DNA of 64,000 nt. It comes from Asticcacaulis taihuensis (lineage in GTDB: Bacteria; Pseudomonadota; Alphaproteobacteria; Caulobacterales; Caulobacteraceae). The stretch spans positions 62,001 through 126,000 of the forward strand of contig NZ_FMTS01000004.1 in NCBI RefSeq assembly GCF_900100255.1, written 5' to 3'. The notes under the pieces were generated by a model. That model made no database searches, was not told the origin of the DNA, and saw nothing but the letters and a program-made list of their open reading frames with translations. A program made the position numbers and the translations under genes. Positions 3,918 to 60,118 of this stretch are shown here, piece after piece. How positions within the stretch are numbered: position 1 is the stretch's first letter; every line of letters begins with the position of its first letter.

Positions 3918-4538
3918 ATGACCTTACCTGATTTTGATCGCGCCCCCATCGAATTCGGCCAGCCCGTACCGCAAAAGAAATCAACCGAGGTACTGGATGC
4001 CCTGTTCCATCGCCGCAGCGCCCCCGCCCCGACACTCGGCCTCCCGGCGCCGACCGAAGAAGAAATGGACCTGCTGATCAAGATCGGTTTCCGCGTGCCG
4101 GATCATGGCAAGCTCGGCCCCTGGCGGATCGTGCGCTTCACGCCGGATAGCAAGACTAAGCTGGTCGAAAAGCTGAAAACACTGGCTGAGAGTCGCTATG
4201 ACCGCAAGGCCGCGGGCGCCCTGCAAAAGCTCTCCATCCCGCCGGAAGCCCTGCTGGTGATCTCCAGCCCGGTTTTTCCGTACAAGAAGCCTTTGTGGGA
4301 GCAGCAGCTTTCCGCTGCCGCCGTCTGCCAGACCCTGCTGATCGCCGCTGGCGCCCTGGGTTATGGCGCTAACTGGATAACCGACTGGTATTCCTATGAT
4401 GATGAGGCCAAGGCATTGCTCGGCCTGACCGAGGGCGAAAACGTCGCTGGCTGGATTTTCCTCGGCACCCCCACCGAAGCGCCGCTGGAACGCGAACGGC
4501 CGGATTATGAGTCGCGGGTTAGCTGGTGGGAAGGCTGA
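3918..4538 (+). CDS. Nitroreductase family protein, YdjA-like
   Basis: 206 residues from the ATG at 3918. The opening basic patch FHRRSAPAPTLGLPAPTEEE and RVPDHGKLGPWRIVRF are hallmark FMN-binding segments of the minimal YdjA-type nitroreductases, which form homodimers and reduce nitro or quinone compounds with NAD(P)H. GYGANWITDW contributes to the flavin site. A longer reading frame extends 22 codons upstream, but it would overlap the divergent Nudix gene and lacks family residues. The gene ends exactly where the next, convergent gene ends. Confidence 0.88.
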   Translation: MTLPDFDRAPIEFGQPVPQKKSTEVLDALFHRRSAPAPTLGLPAPTEEEMDLLIKIGFRVPDHGKLGPWRIVRFTPDSKTKLVEKLKTLAESRYDRKAAGALQKLSIPPEALLVISSPVFPYKKPLWEQQLSAAAVCQTLLIAAGALGYGANWITDWYSYDDEAKALLGLTEGENVAGWIFLGTPTEAPLERERPDYESRVSWWEG

Positions 4539-4997
4539 CTAAAGTCGATCAATTCGATCGCGCTTCAAAGAAATTTTCGCGGCAACTCTCATCACCGCCA
4601 AAAGAACCATTCCTGCGGCGCATAGGCTTAAAACATAAACACAGATAAATTGCAGCCAGATGTTATCTATGCCGGCAAGGAATCCAGTGTCGTAGGAAGC
4701 CCCATAACGCTGAATTATCACCAATGACGCAAAAAAAGTTATAATGAACAAAACTGCGAAGATAGGCTGCATTACCTCCTTACGCATTGCATTTACAGCT
4801 TCTAAAATGACCACGAGCGGAAGACTTACAGCCACTCCGATTATCAAGCAGTGAAATGCAAACATCGGATCGGCAGAATAAATAGTTAAAACCTGGTCGC
4901 GCGCGTTCCACACAAATATTCCAATATTGAGCAATATATCGCTCAAGAATAAAGTGAACGGCGCTCTAACCCAGAAATTTCCCCAAAACCCCCTCAT
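4539..4997 (-). CDS. Four-helix membrane protein, unknown; AT-rich relative to neighbours
   Basis: 152 residues with hydrophobic stretches near 12-32, 48-68, 78-98 and 115-140. The last two are IFAVLFIITFFASLVIIQRY and LQFICVYVLSLCAAGMVLLA. There is no recognisable family. Codon usage is visibly richer in A/T than in neighbouring genes, suggesting recent acquisition or weak expression. It starts 6 bases after the stop region of queF on the same strand. Confidence 0.6.
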   Translation of the reverse strand: MRGFWGNFWVRAPFTLFLSDILLNIGIFVWNARDQVLTIYSADPMFAFHCLIIGVAVSLPLVVILEAVNAMRKEVMQPIFAVLFIITFFASLVIIQRYGASYDTGFLAGIDNIWLQFICVYVLSLCAAGMVLLAVMRVAAKISLKRDRIDRL

Positions 4998-5003
4998 CCG
5001 TGC

Positions 5004-5465
5004 TTACCCACGCCCGCGATAGGTCGGTACACCGAAATCCGGAACATAGACGCCCTTGGGCGCTTCGGCTGTCTGCCAGAAGACATCGATCGGGATACCC
5101 CCGCGCGGATACCAGAAACCGCCGATGCGCAGCCAGCGCGGGGCCAGCAGGTCATTCAGGCGCTTGGCGATATAGACCGTGCAGTCCTCATGGAAGGCGC
5201 CATGATTACGGAAGCTGGTCAGGAAGAGCTTGAGCGACTTGGACTCGACCAGCCACTCACCCGGCACATAATCAATGACCAGATGAGCGAAATCCGGCTG
5301 GCCGGTGACCGGGCACAGCGAGGTGAATTCCGGCGCCGTGAAGCGCGCCACATAGTTCACATCTGCATGTGGATTGGGCACGCGCTCCAGCACAGCCTTG
5401 GCGGGATCATCGACAGGACGGGCATCGCCGCCCAGTTGGGTCAGGTTATCGGTGTAATGGCTCAT
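5004..5465 (-). CDS. queF: NADPH-dependent 7-cyano-7-deazaguanine reductase (single-domain QueF)
   Basis: Reduces preQ0 to preQ1 in queuosine synthesis. It is 153 residues, the length of the single-domain subfamily. [15 protein letters not shown] carries the Cys that forms the thioimide with preQ0 and the following Asp. [20 protein letters not shown] is the QueF signature, with the conserved Glu in ESKS and the FRNHGxFHE segment. No other queuosine genes are in the window. Confidence 0.96.
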
Positions 5466-50761: not shown

Positions 50762-52516
50762 ATGAACGGGGCAACAGGTGCCGCCACTGAAATCATCCCG
50801 GTCGTATTCGACGGGCACAGCGGCAGCCTGCATCGTCCTTCCACCCGGACCGGCAACGGGGCCGCAGTTATCATTTGCGCGCCGGCCGGACGCGATGCCC
50901 GATGGACCTATCACGCGCTCTTTCATTGGGCCGAGCAACTGGCCTGCGAAGGTTACCTGGTTTTACGCTACGATCTGCTCGGTGAAGGCGACTCTCTCGG
51001 CCTGGATGATGCGGCGGATCAATGGGCCGCGTGGGTAAAAGGCGTACGGCAGGCGGCCGATTTCGTACGGACGCAGACCGGCGTATCACAACTGTTTGTC
51101 TGCGGCCTGCGCATTGGCGCCACCCTGGCCTGCGTCGCGGCGGAAGGCGTAAAGCCCGACGGACTGATCCTTTGGGATCCGCTGCCCTCCGGCAAGGCAT
51201 GGCTGAAAGAACTGCGCCTGGCCTATGCCATGCAGATTGGCGCCCACTCCGACGACGACACGATCGAATGCAATGGTCTCTACCTTTCAGCGGCAACCAT
51301 TCAGGCACTTGAAGCTGTAGATATCGCGCACCTCAAGACCGAATGGCCGCCCCTTCTCCTGGCCAGCCCGGTCGGTGCCAAAAGATTGCTGTCCGTTTTC
51401 GGCGACCAGGCGGACTCAACGCCATTTGCCGGCTATACGTTGTTCTTCAAGGATTCCTACGTCAACCAGGCACCTGACGAGTTGTTTAAATCCACAAGGC
51501 AATGGCTCGAAAAGCACCTTGCGCCTTCGTCAGCGACCATTATGCCTTCTGTGCCTTCGGGTATCCTGCAGGCCGACAACTGGCGCGAAGAAAGGGTTTG
51601 TTTCGGTCAGGGACTGCGTGGCGTGCTATGCCTGCCATTACAAAATACAGGCGGCCAGGCCGTCATTTTTGGTAATACCGGCGGCGATCCGAGGGCCGGG
51701 GTGGCCAATTTCTCGACACGCGCCAGCCGCCTTCTGGCGGCGCAAGGCATTGCCGCCCTGCGGTTTGATTTTTCCGGACTGGGGGAAAGCGAGGGTAGCG
51801 ATGTCCACGTCTATGAAACGGACCGCACGCCGGAAATCAAAGAGGCTGCCGTTCTGCTGACCGGGCGCGGTTTCGCTGACGTCACCACCGCCGGCGTCTG
51901 TACCGGCGGTTTCCATGCTGTTCGCGCCGTTCTGGGAGACAGCGGCATCAGCCGTGCCGTGGCTATCAATGCCTGGCTGCTCTGGGAGCAGGGCCGTGAA
52001 CTTGATCGTGCGGCCCATGTCGAATCCATGCGCTCCGTCTATCTGAAGGCACCAGTCCAGGCACGAAAGTGGGTCCGCCTGGCGCGGGAAGCCCTGCATA
52101 GCCATATCCTTTCGCGCCTGGCAGGCCTGAAGCGCAGCTTCTTTCCCCACCCCGCGGCTCAGGCCGCCCGCCTGCAGTTCGCAAAGGCCACCGCTGCGCG
52201 GGATATCCATATCCAGGTTCTGGCCGGTGCAATGGACCTGTCGCTGGAAGGTCTCGAACACTTCGGCCCCCGCGGACGCTGGCTCGCCCGGCAAAAAGGC
52301 ATTTCGATTGCCGTACTGCCGGAACTCGATCACGCCCTGACCACGAAAAAAAGCCAGAAGGAGGCCATCAAAGCGCTTCTTTCCTTCCTCTCCGCAACCT
52401 CATCGAAGGATCGGACTACGGATCGCAGCCAGGCAGCCCCGGCCGCAAACGATTTGCCGTCCAGCGGGAAAAAGTTCGTCGAAAGGACTACCGCAAACCT
52501 TCTCCCGGAAGCCTGA
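50762..52516 (+). CDS. Tandem alpha/beta-hydrolase with non-Ser nucleophile positions
   Basis: 584 residues, two alpha/beta-hydrolase domains (about 10-255 and 280-530). In the first, the nucleophile elbow reads VCGLRIGATLA, so Arg117 replaces the Ser. In the second it reads AGVCTGGFHA, with Cys380. YDLLGEGDSLG and FDFSGLGESEG mark each fold. These elbows resemble the two exosortase-A-associated hydrolase families (hydrolase 2 and hydrolase 1), here fused; no exosortase is in the window. The C-terminal 50 residues are disordered-looking. It faces the fusion acyltransferase gene convergently and may edit acyl-thioesters on its carrier domain, which is inference. Confidence 0.8.
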   Translation: MNGATGAATEIIPVVFDGHSGSLHRPSTRTGNGAAVIICAPAGRDARWTYHALFHWAEQLACEGYLVLRYDLLGEGDSLGLDDAADQWAAWVKGVRQAADFVRTQTGVSQLFVCGLRIGATLACVAAEGVKPDGLILWDPLPSGKAWLKELRLAYAMQIGAHSDDDTIECNGLYLSAATIQALEAVDIAHLKTEWPPLLLASPVGAKRLLSVFGDQADSTPFAGYTLFFKDSYVNQAPDELFKSTRQWLEKHLAPSSATIMPSVPSGILQADNWREERVCFGQGLRGVLCLPLQNTGGQAVIFGNTGGDPRAGVANFSTRASRLLAAQGIAALRFDFSGLGESEGSDVHVYETDRTPEIKEAAVLLTGRGFADVTTAGVCTGGFHAVRAVLGDSGISRAVAINAWLLWEQGRELDRAAHVESMRSVYLKAPVQARKWVRLAREALHSHILSRLAGLKRSFFPHPAAQAARLQFAKATAARDIHIQVLAGAMDLSLEGLEHFGPRGRWLARQKGISIAVLPELDHALTTKKSQKEAIKALLSFLSATSSKDRTTDRSQAAPAANDLPSSGKKFVERTTANLLPEA

Positions 52517-52527
52517 ATGATCCGCTG

Positions 52528-55341
52528 TCAGGCGCCCCGCATCGGTCCGCCGTTAAAGATCAGGCTCAGCAGACGCGACCGGCTGACAACCATATAAACC
52601 AGCCAGCAGCAGCCAAAGCTCCCCGCCGTCGTGAGCGTAATGGCGACCAGCGGATTGACATGCAGTGATATCCACAGATCGTTAAACAGCAAAACAAATA
52701 CGATATGCCAAACATAGATCACGTAGGAGGCGTCCAGCAGACGGGTAATGACCGGGTGCGTATTGTTGGCCCAGCGGTGCATCGCGCTCAGGAAAACACG
52801 GGTCGCAAGCATCCCGACCGGCAGGATATTCAGTTGCTCCAAAATCATCATCGGCAGCGTTTTTGAACTGTCCAGGATAACAAAGACCGCTGTCAGCACA
52901 ACCGTCAGCACAATGGTGAACAGGGACGGCTTCAGATACCATTCAAAAACTTTTGGCCTGAGGAACATCAAAGCCCCGACGAGAAATACCGGCGCGTACA
53001 TGACGATTGTGCGGTATTCAAACATATTAAAGAGGTATGCCCAGTTACCGGCCAGTTTGGCGGCAACGGTTGCGGCCAGGCCCAGCGGTGCAAGCCCCAA
53101 AACCAGACCCCACCAGCAGGCCGCCGTATGCCTGTCTACCATGTCGAGGAAACGTTCCGGCAGGGCACCAAAGCGTCCCTTTCGGTAGAGGGTAACGAGA
53201 ATGGCCATACAGGCCGCCACCGCCAGCAAGGTGGCCAGGAACCACCTGTGGACCAGCCATTGCGGCCCTGTAGACGTCATTTGCTGCACCCAGAATTCCC
53301 ACGGCGGCGGACCTGCGCGGACGGGTGAAATGGCCACTGCCATCACCTCCAGCGGCACAAGCAAAATTCCGCCCAGCACAAGCGGAAAACCCAGCCGCTT
53401 GGCCTGCTGCGTAAACCAGTTGAGCGCCGTCGTCCGCTTCAGGATCAGCATCGAGAAATAGCCGCTGATGAAGAAATAGGCGAACATCCGGAAAGCGTGC
53501 AGCGCCATGAATATCACAGTCGCTATCCAGGAGCGCTCCGGCGCGGAAATGATCATGTCCGACTTGGCATTGAATGCCATGGCGGCATGGAAGGGAATAC
53601 CCAGGAACAGCATGAGCACCCGACCGGTGTTCAGGAAATGCAGCGGCATGGCGACATCTTTTTCGCCGTCGGCATGACGCAGGGCCTCAAGTTCGTCTAC
53701 CGTCTTCATTTCCCAGTCATTGGGCAGGAAGCCCAGATATTCTTCAACCGCCAGCGAGGTCACGACATAGGAAAGAGAATCTCCGGCCAGCGCGATGAAT
53801 GTGCTGTCTCCGGTGACGGCCTTGGCACCGGTCAGGGTAATAAAAATTGCGGAGATGCTGTCCCAGCGGCCGCCATCTGCTGATTGACCGCTGGCGATAT
53901 CCGCAGGCGGATGCTTTTCAGCCGCCTGCCGTATCAGGTTCTGATAGTCGGGTTTGCCACTCGGCAATAGCGGGATCTCGGCCACGGAAAGGATTTCGAT
54001 CAGGAAGGCCGGCAGGCCATAAGTGTCTGTCAGCCAACTGACCAGGGACGCCTGGTCACCAGTTCCCCCCGGCACTGCCACCACAAGGCGCTCGTCGGTG
54101 CCCGTACAAATGGCGCCAGCGGCCCGTTCGCGCACCTGCGCCTGCAATTCATCGAGATTAAGGCGGATCCCGAATGGCTTTATAAAGCGCGAACTGCGCC
54201 CCACGATACGATACAGTCCGTTAGACAGCCTGACCGCGATATCCCCGGTCTTAAGACTGGGGGGTGTTTCGTCTGTCGCCAGGGCCGCCGGTCCTTCGGC
54301 ATACCCCATCATGACGTTCGGTCCCGTATAGATCAACTCGCCCGCCGTATCGGGCGCGTTAATAACCATACCCACCTCATCGATCAGGGACAGGGCGCCG
54401 CCCGGCACTGCGCGGCCAATACAGTCCGGATGGTCAAGAGCGTTTTCCGGCGGCAGGTAGGTCATGCGGGGCGCCGCCTCGGTCTGGCCGTACATGACGA
54501 AAAATCGCCAGCCGTTATTCCGGCCGAATTCGGCCATGCGACGCACGATTTCCGGCGCCAGACGCCCGCCCGCCTGAGTCACATAACGCAGATTGGGCTG
54601 AGCGGCCCAATCGCTCGTACGGTCGAGCATTTCAAAAATATAGGGAACCCCGGCAAAGCTGGTCGCGCCCTGGGCCTCGAACATTGGCCAGAAGCCCGGT
54701 GTCGTGACCGAGCTCTCTGTCAAAACAAGCGACGCGCCACAAGCCAGATGAGAATGAATGATCGACAGGCCATACGAATAGTTGAACTTCAATGTCGTAA
54801 TCGCCCGCTCCGTTTCGTCCAGTCCCAGATATTCGGCGATGGCGAGGGCGTTGGCGTGGATATTCCGGCCCGACAGTTTCACGAACTTGGGCGAACCGGT
54901 GGACCCAGAAGTGGACAGCAGAACGGCAAGATCAGGATGGAGAGGGATTGTTTCGTCGTGGCGCCGCCCGATTACAGACGGTCCCGGTGTCTCATGACGG
55001 ATGACGGCATGCGGGTTATAAATATCGATCAGCCGCTCTACGCGAGCCTCCTCCCCCTCGCCAAACAGATGCACAACATGGCCAGCCCGCAAACATCCGA
55101 GATAGGCCGTCACCGCTTCGATGGTATTTCGCGCTTCAAGAAAGACCAATCGTCCCTGCGGGCCGATCTCGGCACCGATAGTATCGGCATTTGTGATCAA
55201 TGAAGCATAAGTGATGCGACGCGCGCCTTCTATCAGGGCGACATTATCGGCGAAGCGCGTCAGGTTGTTGTAAAATAATACATCCCCCACAGCGGCCGCG
55301 CCATTGTCTGTATTCTCGGATGAGTTCTGTTCGTTCCGCAT
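52528..55341 (-). CDS. Three-domain fusion: adenylation domain, carrier protein, membrane acyltransferase-3
   Basis: 937 residues. Residues about 20-480 form an AMP-binding ligase: LLSTSGSTGSPKFVKLSG (P-loop), MYGQTEAAPRM, ELIYTGPNVMMGY, LKTGDIAV and catalytic Lys463 in PSGKPDY. About 490-560 is an acyl/peptidyl carrier with LAGDSLSY (Ser522, phosphopantetheine site). About 565-930 is an acyltransferase-3 membrane domain of ten helices. R574-x10-H585 is the family catalytic motif and FFISGYF follows. Together it could activate an acid, load it and pass it through the membrane to a glycan. It lies convergent with the tandem hydrolase and divergent from a Wzx-like flippase. Confidence 0.88.
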   Translation of the reverse strand: MRNEQNSSENTDNGAAAVGDVLFYNNLTRFADNVALIEGARRITYASLITNADTIGAEIGPQGRLVFLEARNTIEAVTAYLGCLRAGHVVHLFGEGEEARVERLIDIYNPHAVIRHETPGPSVIGRRHDETIPLHPDLAVLLSTSGSTGSPKFVKLSGRNIHANALAIAEYLGLDETERAITTLKFNYSYGLSIIHSHLACGASLVLTESSVTTPGFWPMFEAQGATSFAGVPYIFEMLDRTSDWAAQPNLRYVTQAGGRLAPEIVRRMAEFGRNNGWRFFVMYGQTEAAPRMTYLPPENALDHPDCIGRAVPGGALSLIDEVGMVINAPDTAGELIYTGPNVMMGYAEGPAALATDETPPSLKTGDIAVRLSNGLYRIVGRSSRFIKPFGIRLNLDELQAQVRERAAGAICTGTDERLVVAVPGGTGDQASLVSWLTDTYGLPAFLIEILSVAEIPLLPSGKPDYQNLIRQAAEKHPPADIASGQSADGGRWDSISAIFITLTGAKAVTGDSTFIALAGDSLSYVVTSLAVEEYLGFLPNDWEMKTVDELEALRHADGEKDVAMPLHFLNTGRVLMLFLGIPFHAAMAFNAKSDMIISAPERSWIATVIFMALHAFRMFAYFFISGYFSMLILKRTTALNWFTQQAKRLGFPLVLGGILLVPLEVMAVAISPVRAGPPPWEFWVQQMTSTGPQWLVHRWFLATLLAVAACMAILVTLYRKGRFGALPERFLDMVDRHTAACWWGLVLGLAPLGLAATVAAKLAGNWAYLFNMFEYRTIVMYAPVFLVGALMFLRPKVFEWYLKPSLFTIVLTVVLTAVFVILDSSKTLPMMILEQLNILPVGMLATRVFLSAMHRWANNTHPVITRLLDASYVIYVWHIVFVLLFNDLWISLHVNPLVAITLTTAGSFGCCWLVYMVVSRSRLLSLIFNGGPMRGA

Positions 55342-55639: not shown

Positions 55640-57127
55640 ATGAGTAAATCGGAGGGGCGCCCGCTTTCCGAACGCACGGCCACCGCCGGCGCATGGACAG
55701 TCGGCGGAAAACTGTTCGGCAAGGCGCTTGACTTCATCTCCCTGCTCGTCCTGGCGCGCTTTCTGGGACCGGCGGATTTCGGTGTCGTCGCCATGGCCAT
55801 GACGGCAGTCCAGGTGGTGGAAGCCCTGTCAGAACTGCCCCTGTCCGCCGTTCTGCTCAATGTGGAAAAGCCCACGGCCAGGATGTATGACACGGCTTTT
55901 TCGATGGCCGTTCTTCGGTCGGTTGCCATCATCGCTGTTCTGGCCACCCTCTCATGGCCCTTGTCAGTCCTTTATCATGAGCCCCGCCTGATCGCCCTGC
56001 AATGTGTGCTCGCCACCGCCCCGGCCATGCGCGGCCTGGTGAGTCAGCGGCTTGTCGAATTTGCCCGCGTCTTTGATTTCAGGCGCGACGTAGCCCTCGA
56101 AATATTCGGAAAAGCCGGCTCTCTGGTAATCGCCACGACACTCGCCATCACCACACACAGTTACTGGGCCATCGCGGCCGGCACTGTTTCGACCACCCTG
56201 GTCATGATGATTGTGTCCTATGTTTTCGCTCCCCAGCGTATCCGCTTTGACCTGTCGCAATGGCGACTGTTCGCGGATATGGTTGGCTGGAACGCCGCCG
56301 GTCAAGTCGTTTCGGCGATCAACTGGCAGGTGGACAAGATCGTGCTGCCGCGCTTTGTCGACACCATGACCTTCGGCCGTTTCACTTCAGCCGACAACCT
56401 GATCGGTATGCCGCTACAGGCCATCATAGTCCCACTTTCAAAGCCTCTTTATACCGCCTTCGTGGCCACACGGGCCCGCGGAGACACGGCGCGCGTCTAC
56501 CTTAAGGCCTATGCCGGCATATTTTCGCTCGTCGGCCTTATCCTGCTGATGATTGCCATACTGGCACACCCCATCGTGCAGCTTATTCTCGGCCCGAAAT
56601 GGCTTGAAACCGCCCCCATCCTGTCATGGCTGGCCCTCACCGCCATCGCCATGCTGCCTTCAGTGGTTCTGCCCCCGCTGGCAATGGCGCTGAACCAGAC
56701 CCGCATGGTATTTTTCAACTTGACAGTGCAGTTCATGGTGAAAGTGCCTCTGATTATCGTTCTGGCCATCACAATGCAGTTGCAAGGGGTCTTGATCGGC
56801 CATGCCGTCGCTTCGGCCGTGGCTTTCGTCACCTGTCTGCTGATCGTCAGGCAAATGGCAGACCTGCCGGTGAAGACGCAGCTTCTGGCGCTGGTTCGCC
56901 CTGTCATGGCGGCGCTGCCGACCACTGTTTTCATGCTGCTGGCCATGAATACATTCAGCGCCCTGGAAACACCCCTTTATCTTTTCCTGAATCTGAGCTG
57001 GGTCTGTACCGGCGCTGCGATCATATTCGCAGGCAGCAGTCTGGCGTTATGGAAGATGGCGGGCTGCCCCGATGGTTACGAAAGCCTGGCGGTCAGGCTT
57101 ACCGGCAAGATGATCCGCCGGACTTGA
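55640..57127 (+). CDS. Wzx/PST-type oligosaccharide flippase
   Basis: 495 residues, 12-14 membrane helices. The N-terminal TAGAWTVGGKLFGKALDFIS followed by LARFLGPADFGVVAMAMT is the MATE-like PST signature. Charged loops (RIRFDLSQWRLF) separate halves. It should flip lipid-linked oligosaccharide to the periplasm. Context with glycosyltransferases and the acyltransferase points to a surface polysaccharide. It ends 6 bases before the convergent GT25 gene. Confidence 0.92.
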   Translation: MSKSEGRPLSERTATAGAWTVGGKLFGKALDFISLLVLARFLGPADFGVVAMAMTAVQVVEALSELPLSAVLLNVEKPTARMYDTAFSMAVLRSVAIIAVLATLSWPLSVLYHEPRLIALQCVLATAPAMRGLVSQRLVEFARVFDFRRDVALEIFGKAGSLVIATTLAITTHSYWAIAAGTVSTTLVMMIVSYVFAPQRIRFDLSQWRLFADMVGWNAAGQVVSAINWQVDKIVLPRFVDTMTFGRFTSADNLIGMPLQAIIVPLSKPLYTAFVATRARGDTARVYLKAYAGIFSLVGLILLMIAILAHPIVQLILGPKWLETAPILSWLALTAIAMLPSVVLPPLAMALNQTRMVFFNLTVQFMVKVPLIIVLAITMQLQGVLIGHAVASAVAFVTCLLIVRQMADLPVKTQLLALVRPVMAALPTTVFMLLAMNTFSALETPLYLFLNLSWVCTGAAIIFAGSSLALWKMAGCPDGYESLAVRLTGKMIRRT

Positions 57128-57133
57128 TTGCGA

Positions 57134-57892
57134 TCACAGGCGCCGCTTCAGTCCCCTCACCGCGATCAGAAACTTCAGGTTGCTCAAGGTTTTGGCCAGC
57201 TTCTCACTAATCCGGAACCAGGTATGGGCCAAGGCCACTTCCTTCAGATCAGCCTTGCGGCGCGCCCGCTCGCCGGCAATATTCGATCGTGCGGATTTCT
57301 CGATCACCGGAAAGGGGTATACGGCATACAGATCGAGACCATTGGCCCAGAACCGGCCCAGCTCATCATCAATCGGCATGGTGATGGCTTTTACAGACGC
57401 CAAAAAACGCCGTGCCCCCGCCTTATTGATCAGATAGGCCTGCGTGCCGTAAGGGTCGGTTTTGAAGCGAACGAGCTGATGTTCGTGCCAGCCGTGTATG
57501 ACGGTTCCGGGCTTGAACCGTTTCGCATACAGGCGAACATAGGCGATATCCAGCTTTTCGGCGATCGTAATAACATTCTGATAGTCGAATCCCGTATCGA
57601 CCCAGACATCATCCTCCAGGACCAGTAGCCAGTCCGATTCGCCATCCTGCACAAAAGCCTGCATGACCGCCGCGTGGCTTTTAAAACAGCCGATTTCGCC
57701 CGGTCCCAGTTCACGACCAAAGCGGATCAGTTGTTGCGCAGGGTTGGAAACATAATCGCTGGGTGAATCACTCCGCATAGCGTTGAAGAAACGCCAGTTC
57801 CCACCGTTAAACGCCCCCAGATTCTCCGTTACGGACTGCCGGCGCGCCTCATCCGTTTTGAGGTTGATGACCCTGACCGTTAAATTCCCCAT
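57134..57892 (-). CDS. Glycosyltransferase family 25
   Basis: 252 residues from ATG 57892 (an adjoining TTG at 57895 is possible). VRVINLKTDEARRQSVTENL, ELGPGEIGCFKSHAAVMQAF and WLLVLEDDVWVDTG are the GT25 signature (LPS galactosyl- or related transferases). C-terminal basic stretch KFLIAVRGLKRRL may touch the membrane. The donor sugar is unknown. Confidence 0.9.
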   Translation of the reverse strand: MGNLTVRVINLKTDEARRQSVTENLGAFNGGNWRFFNAMRSDSPSDYVSNPAQQLIRFGRELGPGEIGCFKSHAAVMQAFVQDGESDWLLVLEDDVWVDTGFDYQNVITIAEKLDIAYVRLYAKRFKPGTVIHGWHEHQLVRFKTDPYGTQAYLINKAGARRFLASVKAITMPIDDELGRFWANGLDLYAVYPFPVIEKSARSNIAGERARRKADLKEVALAHTWFRISEKLAKTLSNLKFLIAVRGLKRRL

Positions 57893-58186
57893 CAAATCCA
57901 GCCTTTTCCGTTGCTTACATAACTCAGGTACTTACTTCTCACGGCGTCGTTGAAAAACTATTGACCCTGACCAGACTTTTACGCTGCGCAAGTGCTCCCT
58001 TTTCTCATAAAATTATAAATTTTATGAACCAAAACCGATATTTCACCAAATCGCAATCGGTTGACATTACAGAACAGACGCGTCACTTCGGCTGACAATC
58101 TTTGTGGCTGGCCTGTTTCTTGCTAACGGTCGCCATGCCAGGGCCCGACCGCCGGCGTATTAATTTGTCACTCTCTGGAGTTCAGC
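57893..58186. other. Divergent promoter with a perfect 23-base dyad
   Basis: Between GT25 and the GT2 genes. TCATAAAATT-ATA-AATTTTATGA at 58005-58027 is perfectly symmetrical with 10-base arms. It is an operator candidate for a regulator of the glycan locus. No coding sequence is apparent. Confidence 0.5.
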
Positions 58187-58231
58187 ATGAGCCTTATTCT
58201 GGTCATTTCAAACCTTCCAGGTGCTGAATGA
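58187..58231 (+). CDS. 14-codon leader ORF coupled to the GT2 gene
   Basis: MSLILVISNLPGAE with GGAG 6 bases ahead. Its stop overlaps the GT2 start (ATGA). It could be a true leader peptide or an N-terminal remnant of an earlier gene version. Confidence 0.35.
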   Translation: MSLILVISNLPGAE

Positions 58232-59103
58232 AGATTGCCATCGCCATTGCTACTGCCGGCCGCGTGCAGGTTTTGTCCGAGGCCATAGCCTATATGCGCA
58301 AACAGACACGTAAACCCGATGGCTTATACATCTGCCCGGCAACCGACGCAGATCTCGATCCGGCCTGTCTTGAGGGCTTTCCGTGTCCAACCCGCGTCGT
58401 CAAGGGACCGCGCGGTTCGGCATCGCAGAGAAATGCCATTTTGAAACAGTTGAGCGACGAGGACATTGTTGTCTTCTTTGATGACGACTTCCTGCCCGAA
58501 CCCACCTTTCTGGCTGAACTCGAAGACCTCTATCTCCGTCACCCCGATGTCGTGGTTGCAACCGGTCACGTCGTTGCGGACGGCATAAAAAATGCCGGCA
58601 TCAGTTATGATGAAGCCATGCGCATTATCGATGCTTTGCCGGAATTACCTCCCGCAGTACTGACCGCTTCCTTTTCGGGTTACGGCTGCAATATGGCGGT
58701 GCGCCGGCAGGCTCTGGTTGAGACGGGCATCGAATTTGATGAAAAACTGCCGCTTTATGCCTGGTGGGAAGATGTGGATTTTTCCCGCCGGCTGGCGCCT
58801 TATGGCCGCATAGTCACCTATAACCGTATGAGAGGCGTCCACCAGGGCACGAAAAAAGGCCGCTCCCCTGGCAAGCGCCTCGGTTACAGCCAGGTCATCA
58901 ACCTGATTTACCTCAATCGGAAGGGCAGTATCGGGCCCGCCATGACATACAACCAGATATTAAAGAATATAGCGGCCAACCTGGCGGGGTCTTTCCGGCC
59001 CGAGCCTTGGGTTGACCGGCGTGGTCGCCTGACCGGCAACCTGATGGCCCTGGGTGACGCGATCAAGGGCAAGGTTGATCCCGAACGCATATTGGAAATG
59101 TAG
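58228..59103 (+). CDS. Glycosyltransferase family 2
   Basis: 291 residues. IAIAIATAGRVQVLSEAIAY is the nucleotide-sugar fold start. DEDIVVFFDDDFLPEPTF has the metal-binding DDD. GYGCNMAVRRQALVETG and PLYAWWEDVDFSRRLAPYG hold the catalytic ED pair. Cytoplasmic sugar transferase of the surface-glycan locus; the sugar is unknown. Confidence 0.92.
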   Translation: MKIAIAIATAGRVQVLSEAIAYMRKQTRKPDGLYICPATDADLDPACLEGFPCPTRVVKGPRGSASQRNAILKQLSDEDIVVFFDDDFLPEPTFLAELEDLYLRHPDVVVATGHVVADGIKNAGISYDEAMRIIDALPELPPAVLTASFSGYGCNMAVRRQALVETGIEFDEKLPLYAWWEDVDFSRRLAPYGRIVTYNRMRGVHQGTKKGRSPGKRLGYSQVINLIYLNRKGSIGPAMTYNQILKNIAANLAGSFRPEPWVDRRGRLTGNLMALGDAIKGKVDPERILEM

Positions 59104-59134
59104 TCTGCCAAACAGCCTCGGAAGGTCCGAAAAA

Positions 59135-60118
59135 TTGAAACTCAGCGTCATTATCGCCAATTATAATTACGAACGTTTCGTTGGCGAAGCGATCGACAGC
59201 GCCCTGGCCATCCGGGGCGCCGAGATCGAAGTTATTGTTGTCGATGACGGCTCAACGGATCAATCATGGCAGGTTATCACCTCCTACGGTGATCGTGTTA
59301 TCGCCATCCGTCAGGCAAATGCCGGACAACGCGTTGCCTCCAATGTCGGCTATGCGCGGGCGACTGGCGATTGGATCCTCTTCCTGGATGCCGACGACCT
59401 GGTCGATCCGTCGATCGCTGAAGAAGTCATGCGCGTTGCCACGCCCGATACCTGCAAGGTGCAGTTCCAAATGGAACGGGTCGGTGGCGAAGGACAACAG
59501 ACCGGATCACGCTTCCCCATTTACGATCCCCCGCCGACACCGGAAAAGATAAAGGTGTGGGCCATCCGTCTGAATGCATACCCGACACCGCCCGGCTCCG
59601 GCAACGTCTATGCCCGCGCCTATCTCGATGCGCTTTTTCCACTCGATAATAGCTGTGGGGAAACACCGGATTCCGCTCTGGTGACAGCCGCGCCCTTTTT
59701 CGGGGATGTCATCACTGTTGATAAACCGCTGGTGCATTACCGCGTCCACGGCGCCAATGACAGCAACCTGTTTGCCAGGGAAGGGCTATTCGCGCGGGAA
59801 GTCGCCCGCGGCCATGCCAAATTCCTCTTCGCGCAGCGTATCGCAAAGACGGTCGGCACCGAAATCCCGGATAGCAGCTTCCGCAAGAACCTTCATGTGC
59901 TTCAGCACCGCATCCCTTCCGTGACGCTGACGCCGGCGCTCCATCCCCTTCCCTGGGATAACAAGTATCAGCTTTTCAAAGACATTATCAGGTCGACACT
60001 GGTATTTGACGCCATGGCGGTAAAGCGCCGGATCATCTTGCTGGTCTGGGGCGTCCTGACACTCATCAGCCCCCGGCCCATTGCCGAAAAGCTGATACGG
60101 AAGCGGTTTCGCGCTTAG
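59135..60118 (+). CDS. Glycosyltransferase family 2, second copy
   Basis: 327 residues from TTG 59135 (GGAAGG upstream); a longer frame overlaps the previous gene. KLSVIIANYNYERFVGEAID, VIVVDDGSTDQSWQVI and GDWILFLDADDLVDPSIAEE are the GT-A landmarks. The C-terminus has one hydrophobic helix RIILLVWGVLTLISPRP, likely a membrane anchor. Ends just before a repeat. Confidence 0.9.
   Translation: MKLSVIIANYNYERFVGEAIDSALAIRGAEIEVIVVDDGSTDQSWQVITSYGDRVIAIRQANAGQRVASNVGYARATGDWILFLDADDLVDPSIAEEVMRVATPDTCKVQFQMERVGGEGQQTGSRFPIYDPPPTPEKIKVWAIRLNAYPTPPGSGNVYARAYLDALFPLDNSCGETPDSALVTAAPFFGDVITVDKPLVHYRVHGANDSNLFAREGLFAREVARGHAKFLFAQRIAKTVGTEIPDSSFRKNLHVLQHRIPSVTLTPALHPLPWDNKYQLFKDIIRSTLVFDAMAVKRRIILLVWGVLTLISPRPIAEKLIRKRFRA

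Follow-up and report, generated by a model that had tools for sequence, protein, structure and literature searches.

A fused adenylation, carrier and AT3 protein of Asticcacaulis taihuensis as a putative carrier-fed transmembrane acyltransferase

Within a stretch of 64,000 nucleotides from the genome of Asticcacaulis taihuensis (the window), a single gene encodes a protein of 937 amino acids in which an adenylation domain (A), a carrier domain (T) and a transmembrane acyltransferase domain of the AT3 type are joined. This protein, called the A. taihuensis fusion in the following, is regarded here as a probable carrier-fed acyltransferase made in one piece. As the original prediction had claimed, the three domains lie in one open frame and Lys463, Ser522 and Arg574-x10-His585 stand at the residues named for them; the strand, which had not been given, is minus. 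The coordinates of the gene, its domains and residues and the neighbouring genes are collected in Table 1.

Table 1. Features of the gene for the A. taihuensis fusion and of its surroundings (coordinates are positions in the window, residue numbers those of the fusion)
Feature	Coordinates	Strand	Remarks
Fused A-T-AT3 gene	52528..55341	-	937 aa; ATG start at 55341; one open frame; full-length relatives in five other same-genus genomes
Adenylation (ANL) domain, residues ~25-476	53914..55269	-	PF00501 E=5.4e-42 (residues 25-347)
Ser189, in place of the amino-binding Asp (VinN Asp230)	54775..54777	-	HMMER alignment; Ser/Cys in 92/93 family rows
Arg292, in place of VinN Arg331	54466..54468	-	HMMER alignment; invariant, 93/93 rows
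Lys463, predicted catalytic A10 lysine (in LLPSGKPDY)	53953..53955	-	kept in 93/93 aligned A-T family rows
Carrier domain (T/PCP), residues 493-557	53671..53865	-	family profile E=5.3e-20
Ser522, predicted phosphopantetheine site (ALAGDSLSY, GDSL-type)	53776..53778	-	Ser in 88/88 A-T family rows with a residue there
AT3 (OpgC-like) transmembrane acyltransferase domain, residues 568-917	52591..53640	-	PF01757 E=5.5e-21, profile 2-326 of 326
Asn571, at the usual place of the DxxR Asp in free AT3s	53629..53631	-	motif alignment
Arg574 of R-x10-H (TMH1)	53620..53622	-	present
His585 of R-x10-H (TMH1)	53587..53589	-	present
Gln646, at the usual place of the first RxxR Arg in free AT3s (TMH3)	53404..53406	-	second Arg kept as Arg649
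Two alpha/beta-hydrolase domains in one frame, convergent neighbour	50762..52516	+	TIGR03101 79.8 bits, TIGR03100 68.4 bits, both below cut-off
Wzx/MOP-type polysaccharide flippase, divergent neighbour	55640..57127	+	PF13440 E=5.8e-44
Glycosyltransferase family 25	57134..57895	-	PF01755 E=2.2e-23
Glycosyltransferase family 2	58228..59103	+	PF00535 E=1.7e-6
Glycosyltransferase family 2	59054..60118	+	PF00535 E=5.1e-26

The top sequence matches of the adenylation domain in the PDB were an oxalate-CoA ligase (5ie0) and, next to it, the nonribosomal peptide synthetase (NRPS) entry 3wvn (VinN). Among the NCBIfam matches listed, the best one for the AT3 half was NF003014 (MdoC), which was covered from position 9 to 374 of 386 (E=1.5e-42, 146.1 bits) without reaching its cut-off of 338. 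The carrier domain of the A. taihuensis fusion was not reported as PF00550 by Pfam at E<=0.01 and was detected with a profile built from the carrier domains of 83 relatives, from which all rows of the fusion's own type (OpgC-type, see below) had been left out; the search space was set to 20000. When ten relatives were scanned, nine matched PF00550 at E<=0.01, seven of these over the cut-off, and the non-matching one was the OpgC-type fusion of locus L039. The stretch with Arg574 and His585 reads GRVLMLFLGIPFH. Ser522 stands 52 residues before Arg574, the median distance between the carrier serine and the arginine of transmembrane helix 1 (TMH1) being 54 over 75 rows. An AlphaFold model of the whole protein had a mean pLDDT of 74.8, with values between 36 and 78 for ten-residue blocks of the AT3 half, and in a Foldseek comparison with the PDB the best 50 of 1160 matches were all adenylate-forming enzymes or NRPS structures, with no AT3 structures among them.

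The full-length fusion is held by six of the 25 genomes of the genus that were searched, including that of A. taihuensis. The proteins of the other five, whose carriers include Asticcacaulis endophyticus, A. machinosus and an Asticcacaulis metagenome-assembled genome, have 919 amino acids and are about 50% identical to the A. taihuensis fusion. In another member of the genus (L151, genome G133) the A-T gene is present as a broken copy interrupted by two stops, and an AT3-like frame lies nearby. In the search of own-family genomes all 199 gave some match, most of the matches listed showing about 30% identity and being confined to the adenylation part.

A scan of a genome collection yielded 343 relatives among 363 candidate stretches, and the best 80 were kept (the 80 loci). 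The combination of AMP-binding, carrier and AT3 domains was found to be a widespread layout, as in 68 of these loci the A-T frame also includes an AT3 domain, which is of the common kind in 65 and of the OpgC-type in three. The remainder comprises six fusions of A-T with an SGNH domain, two proteins that consist of A-T alone (L042, L044), two discrete ligases (L100, L116) and two frames truncated at a contig end (L045, L107). The groups represented include actinobacteria, Rhodobacterales, Sphingomonas and Massilia, among others, and seven further common-kind fusions were found beyond the 80 loci in genomes of the family to which A. taihuensis belongs. The A. taihuensis fusion is one branch of a large A-T family. 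Residue counts on this family were made on 93 rows, from which the near-duplicates L009-L011, L013 and L014 were dropped and in which discrete ligases and A-T-only proteins were kept. The closest outgroup is formed by discrete ligases (L100, L116, L189, L190). A short-chain dehydrogenase/reductase (SDR) and a LuxE-like protein are neighbours at L100, L116 and L189, a LuxC-like protein is also present at L100 and L189, and a discrete acyl carrier protein (ACP) was seen near the ligases of L100, L189 and L190 (families scanned in L100, the rest assigned by eye).

The residues described for the coenzyme A (CoA) site were compared among AT3 domains; the literature is cited here and below from excerpts of the sources. 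The acyl-CoA site is reported to be formed by an Asp and an Arg of TMH1 together with the RxxR motif of TMH3, and in HGSNAT mutation of the first Arg of RxxR impaired the enzyme and the Asp was essential (PMC12423673, PMC9833829). The fused set comprised 76 AT3 rows, one each from 68 of the 80 loci, the seven further own-family fusions and the A. taihuensis fusion, after the near-duplicates L009-L014 had been dropped; the 12 loci without an AT3 row were L042, L044, L045, L047, L049, L060, L062, L080, L083, L100, L107 and L116. They were set against 65 other AT3 rows from 62 loci, three of which gave two rows, while L160, L180 and L181 gave none; further AT3-like rows at L042, L044, L068, L081, L149, L150 and L151 were not counted as free. 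The DxxR Asp was found in 0 of 76 fused domains and in 0 of four AT3 partners encoded by separate genes (at L044 the position is an alignment gap, Asn by eye), compared with 47 of 65 other rows. For the first Arg of RxxR the counts were 0/76, 0/4 and 60/65. The R-x10-H motif was retained in the fused rows, with 75 Arg and one Lys (L068) at the first position and 76 His at the second. In a gap-free alignment of the A. taihuensis fusion with its free relative L028, Asp is replaced by Asn and Arg by Gln. As controls, 26 AT3 rows from 12 genomes holding the A-T family kept the Arg in 21 and the Asp in only 12 cases, and eight AT3s fetched from the A. taihuensis genome, where 12 are listed besides the fusion, kept them in eight and four cases, respectively. 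Since the controls keep the Arg more often than the Asp, the Arg is the stronger marker. In our reading, the donor of the paired AT3s would no longer bring the adenosine part of CoA.

The pairing of both modules is also seen across gene borders. At the split loci L042, L044, L149 and L150 an A-T gene is accompanied by a separate AT3 gene on the same strand nearby (PF01757 in 4/4), which is the next gene in three of them; in L042 another AT3 gene intervenes. Within the polysaccharide locus L042:2866-15170 four matches to the AT3 profile were counted, three of them with Lys for the Arg of R-x10-H, and a fifth AT3-like frame was noted by eye at 3975-5075. Directly after the OpgC-type fusions of L039, L040 and L041, a TmAT-like membrane protein (DUF418/YeiB-like by eye) is encoded (L039:12835-14034, L040:12835-14034, L041:9991-11190).

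A different partner was found at six Massilia/Pseudoduganella loci (L047, L049, L060, L062, L080, L083), where A-T, one hydrophobic stretch and an SGNH/GDSL domain share one frame. The SGNH domain was assigned by Pfam for L047, with which the other five share 43-96% identity in their C-terminal parts. In all six, an MBOAT gene starts 7-23 bases past the stop of the A-T-SGNH gene. The MBOAT of L047 scored 158.9 bits against the DltB model, below the cut-off, and the other five were assigned by similarity to L047. The six MBOATs have FIYFQF at the C-terminus, in agreement with FXYXXF, which has been described as an acyl-tyrosine motif of bacterial MBOATs (PMC12148441). In the Dlt system a carrier is known to feed an MBOAT (PMC12148441, PMC9338922). 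Since DltB takes D-Ala from the carrier DltC, whereas other MBOAT-SGNH pathways operate without a carrier (PMC12148441), the Massilia-group arrangement has the parts of Dlt, and it is predicted to be a condensed Dlt-like pathway in Gram-negative bacteria.

Trees were calculated for both modules. In the A-T tree, built by a quick method, OpgC-type fusions and split A-T proteins group together with an SH-aLRT value of 98, and the SGNH type forms one group. The AT3 tree, rooted at the midpoint, contained 20 canonical and three OpgC-type fused, four split and 68 other rows. Paired AT3s occur in three places, namely the common fused kind together with split L150, the split partners of L042, L044 and L149, and the OpgC-type. 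The last, with the A. taihuensis fusion, falls into a well-supported clade of 13 rows, 10 of which are free proteins; these keep the first Arg of RxxR in 10/10 and the Asp of DxxR in 9/10 (one Glu). Three changes between the paired and the unpaired state are counted in the best tree and in its bootstrap range. Repeated pairing of AT3 with the A-T module appears well supported on these trees, the exact number of events less so.

For the acid that would be activated, the adenylation domain was aligned by HMMER with PDB chain 3wvn, which is named as VinN in PMC11253843; the numbering offset of 16 was derived from the alignment. Ser189 falls on Asp230 of VinN, Tyr190 on Phe231, Ala257 on Ser299 and Arg292 on Arg331. 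Asp230 is reported to bind the amino group in VinN, and for Ser299 and Arg331 binding of the far carboxylate of methylaspartate has been proposed. Arg occupies position 292 in all 93 rows of the family, and Ser or Cys occupies position 189 in 92 of them. An aspartate-like pocket lacking the amino-binding Asp suggests, and only suggests, a C4 dicarboxylate such as succinate. A succinate-like acid would fit the OpgC-like AT3 partner, OpgC being a succinyltransferase (PMC9558356). With low to moderate confidence, an amino-free dicarboxylate of succinate size is considered the most likely substrate.

Because the catalytic marks are conserved, A-T and AT3 also occur as split gene pairs, the MBOAT and SGNH sister arrangement mirrors Dlt and the CoA-site residues are absent from every paired AT3 examined, we consider it probable that the A. 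taihuensis fusion is a one-piece, carrier-fed transmembrane acyltransferase, a Dlt-like device with AT3 in place of MBOAT. Judging by its fold and Lys463, the cytoplasmic A domain would adenylate a carboxylic acid with ATP. The acyl group would then pass to a phosphopantetheine on Ser522, for whose attachment the single AcpS-type transferase found in the genome is the probable enzyme. The carrier, tethered beside TMH1, may insert its acyl-phosphopantetheine arm from the cytoplasm into the pore of AT3, much as DltC does with DltB, and CoA would not be the donor. Finally, AT3 with Arg574 and His585 would transfer the acyl group to an acceptor outside the cytoplasm; in A. taihuensis, a glycan that the flippase encoded next door exports is the most likely candidate. 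The original prediction had proposed that an acid is activated, held as a thioester and passed to such an acceptor, and this is supported by the same four lines of evidence. It had also called carrier-fed transfer by an AT3 unusual. AT3s are described as acyl-CoA users, and a 2022 review speaks against ACP as their donor (both PMC9558356). The family-wide pattern in favour of carrier-fed transfer supports a finding stronger than had been stated.

Several observations weigh against this interpretation. In a search for the PF01648 family, the sole phosphopantetheinyl transferase found in the A. taihuensis genome was AcpS-sized (G000:C8:359295-359567), and AcpS enzymes can be narrow. AcpS does modify DltC (PMC9338922). 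The DxxR Asp is a weak marker, being absent from 18 of the 65 other AT3 rows, and the TMH1 Asp is dispensable in OacB (PMC12423673, PMC9833829). The first Arg of RxxR is likewise absent from five of the 65, and in the split partners it is replaced by three Lys and one Tyr, Lys being basic and not neutral. The second Arg, which in OafB is predicted to touch the 3'-phosphate of CoA (PMC12423673, PMC9833829), is kept in 32 of 76 fused domains including the A. taihuensis fusion. Furthermore, the 76 fused rows are related, so that the count reflects few events, and the well-supported branches of the AT3 tree by themselves force two changes of pairing, not three. Concerning the acid, the carboxylate residue Ser299 of VinN is not kept (Ala257), so that the succinate assignment rests on one residue; this residue, Arg292, is also present in the discrete-ligase outgroup, whose neighbours (ACP, LuxE, LuxC, FabG-like SDR) give no hint of a dicarboxylate. 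As acceptor, an ordinary osmoregulated glucan of the OpgG kind is disfavoured, since no match to PF04349 (OpgG) was found in the genome, other glucan systems not having been searched.

The fusion gene stands alone at its locus, back to back with the flippase and glycosyltransferase genes and tail to tail with the gene for the two-domain hydrolase. Polysaccharide genes flank the A. taihuensis fusion (by Pfam) and also the A-T genes of L042, L149 and L150 (by eye). The two hydrolase domains weakly resemble exosortase-A-associated hydrolases 2 and 1. An exosortase link, to which TIGR03098, TIGR03100 and TIGR03101 pointed, was rejected as context, as no exosortase was found in the genome.

In actinobacteria another neighbourhood was observed. 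A trio of ATP-binding cassette (ABC) transporter genes, coding for binding protein, permease and ATPase, lies within 6.5 kb of A-T-AT3 in 21 of the 80 loci, all actinobacterial, on either side and in both orientations (L058, L059, L064, L066, L067, L085, L090, L093-L095, L098, L099, L101-L103, L105, L106, L108, L110, L115, L118). Pfam assigned the binding protein to PF13343, and in NCBIfam it matched models of aminoethylphosphonate, thiamine and molybdate types, none of them over the cut-off; the predicted substrate of the trio is likely iron. Among four plasmids looked at, two carry a RefSeq annotation "iron ABC transporter". These are the Rhodococcus fascians D188 plasmid (L194) and a Mycolicibacterium rufum plasmid (L195), where the copies adjoin the iron ABC transporter, with genes for metal transport or metal resistance nearby. 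The plasmid copies looked at are annotated solely as AMP-binding protein.

Such neighbours could indicate that a small diffusible product is made, for example a metal-binding molecule, with AT3 acting on a small acceptor and no surface polymer being decorated. This is unlikely; in its favour, the ferric-type trio occurs in several gene orders and half of the plasmid copies looked at share the annotated iron transporter. At L039-L042 and L044, on the other hand, the trio search found none, and inspection by eye showed none at L149 or L150. None of the six genes scanned near the A. taihuensis fusion codes for an ABC part, the window not having been searched for the trio. In addition, this fusion and the A-T genes of L042, L149 and L150 sit among polysaccharide genes, and AT3 acceptors are mostly glycans (PMC9558356).

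Slightly less probable is that the A domain makes acyl-CoA, or acyl-AMP that is handed to CoA, and that AT3 uses acyl-CoA in the ordinary way, with the carrier acting as a spacer or transient relay. For AT3 proteins acyl-CoA is described as the donor (PMC9558356, PMC12423673, PMC9833829), the A domain shows similarity to acyl-CoA ligases too, its top PDB match being an oxalate-CoA ligase, and Arg649 is retained. A carrier serine kept in 88 of 88 rows speaks against this reading, as do the two CoA-site residues missing from all 76 fused domains and all four split partners, and the six Massilia-group loci, in each of which the A-T module is combined with an SGNH domain and a DltB-like MBOAT.

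Transfer of an alpha-amino acid, as of D-alanine by Dlt, is improbable and ranks behind both. It would follow Dlt logic and suit the A-T-SGNH and MBOAT relatives, and the amino acid adenylation model TIGR01733 matched the A. taihuensis fusion with 128.6 bits, without reaching the cut-off of 317.4 bits. The absence of the amino-binding Asp, replaced by Ser189 here and by Ser or Cys in nearly the whole family, argues against amino acids as substrate. An artefact, in which an assembly error joined two genes or a wrong frame was read, is refuted by the independent fusions in five further genomes of the genus at about 50% identity, and nothing in its favour was found.

The carrier-fed reading can be set beside known systems. 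With Dlt (DltA, DltC, DltB, DltD) the A. taihuensis fusion shares, as predicted from its sequence, adenylation, a carrier thioester and transmembrane transfer to a surface acceptor, and the Massilia-group relatives have A-T, a hydrophobic stretch and SGNH plus an MBOAT ending in FIYFQF. It differs in being one protein, in having AT3 and not MBOAT with SGNH, and in lacking the amino-binding Asp. To OpgC/MdoC, the succinyltransferase of osmoregulated periplasmic glucans, it is linked by the NF003014 match and by the grouping of its AT3 half with free OpgC-like proteins in the tree; it is set apart by a score of 146 bits compared with the 338-bit cut-off, the fusion to A-T, Asn571 and Gln646, and a genome in which no OpgG was found. 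As a member of the ANL enzymes (PF00501) it has the AMP-binding profile and the A10 Lys. VinN-type adenylation enzymes provide its second-best PDB match (3wvn) and share the aligned pairs Arg292/Arg331 and Tyr190/Phe231. The pairs Asp230/Ser189 and Ser299/Ala257 differ, and VinN is reported to stand alone and to load a separate ACP. In Aas, an acyl-ACP synthetase is likewise fused to an acyltransferase, and Aas-type models match the A domain weakly, whereas no PlsC domain was found in the A. taihuensis fusion by Pfam at E<=0.01. In phospholipid repair, the ACP with which Aas cooperates is a separate protein. Within the AT3/TmAT superfamily (PF01757) the fusion matches the full profile and has R-x10-H, and is an AT3 variant without the DxxR Asp and the first RxxR Arg; as the Asp is missing from those 18 other rows as well, Asn571 does not exclude AT3 membership. 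The AT3-SGNH O-acetyltransferases OafB and OatA have the same AT3 profile and R-x10-H in TMH1, but their extra domain is a C-terminal extracytoplasmic SGNH and not an N-terminal A-T, and they are described as acyl-CoA users in the three sources named above. Among the matches listed in one open-access library, no description of the A-T-AT3 architecture or its function was found; the domain combination may already be listed in domain databases, as an eLife paper refers to further Pfam architectures.

On a broader view, which we put forward tentatively, a widespread A-T module may have recruited up to four transmembrane acyl-transfer engines, three AT3 lineages and one MBOAT/SGNH pair, for putting a carboxylate-bearing acyl group, most simply succinyl, on surface molecules without CoA. 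The AT3s that joined it would each have lost CoA-site residues, and in actinobacteria the carboxylates may help to gather ferric iron for the adjoining ABC transporter. With donor, carrier and membrane enzyme in one chain, the A-T-AT3 family offers a natural, self-contained test of the donor, and the absent CoA-site residues of the paired AT3s name the positions to probe. If carrier-fed transfer holds true, it would link the AT3 and Dlt worlds, show that one activation module can be followed by exchangeable membrane acyl-transfer steps and assign a function to those proteins that the plasmid records label by their AMP-binding domain.

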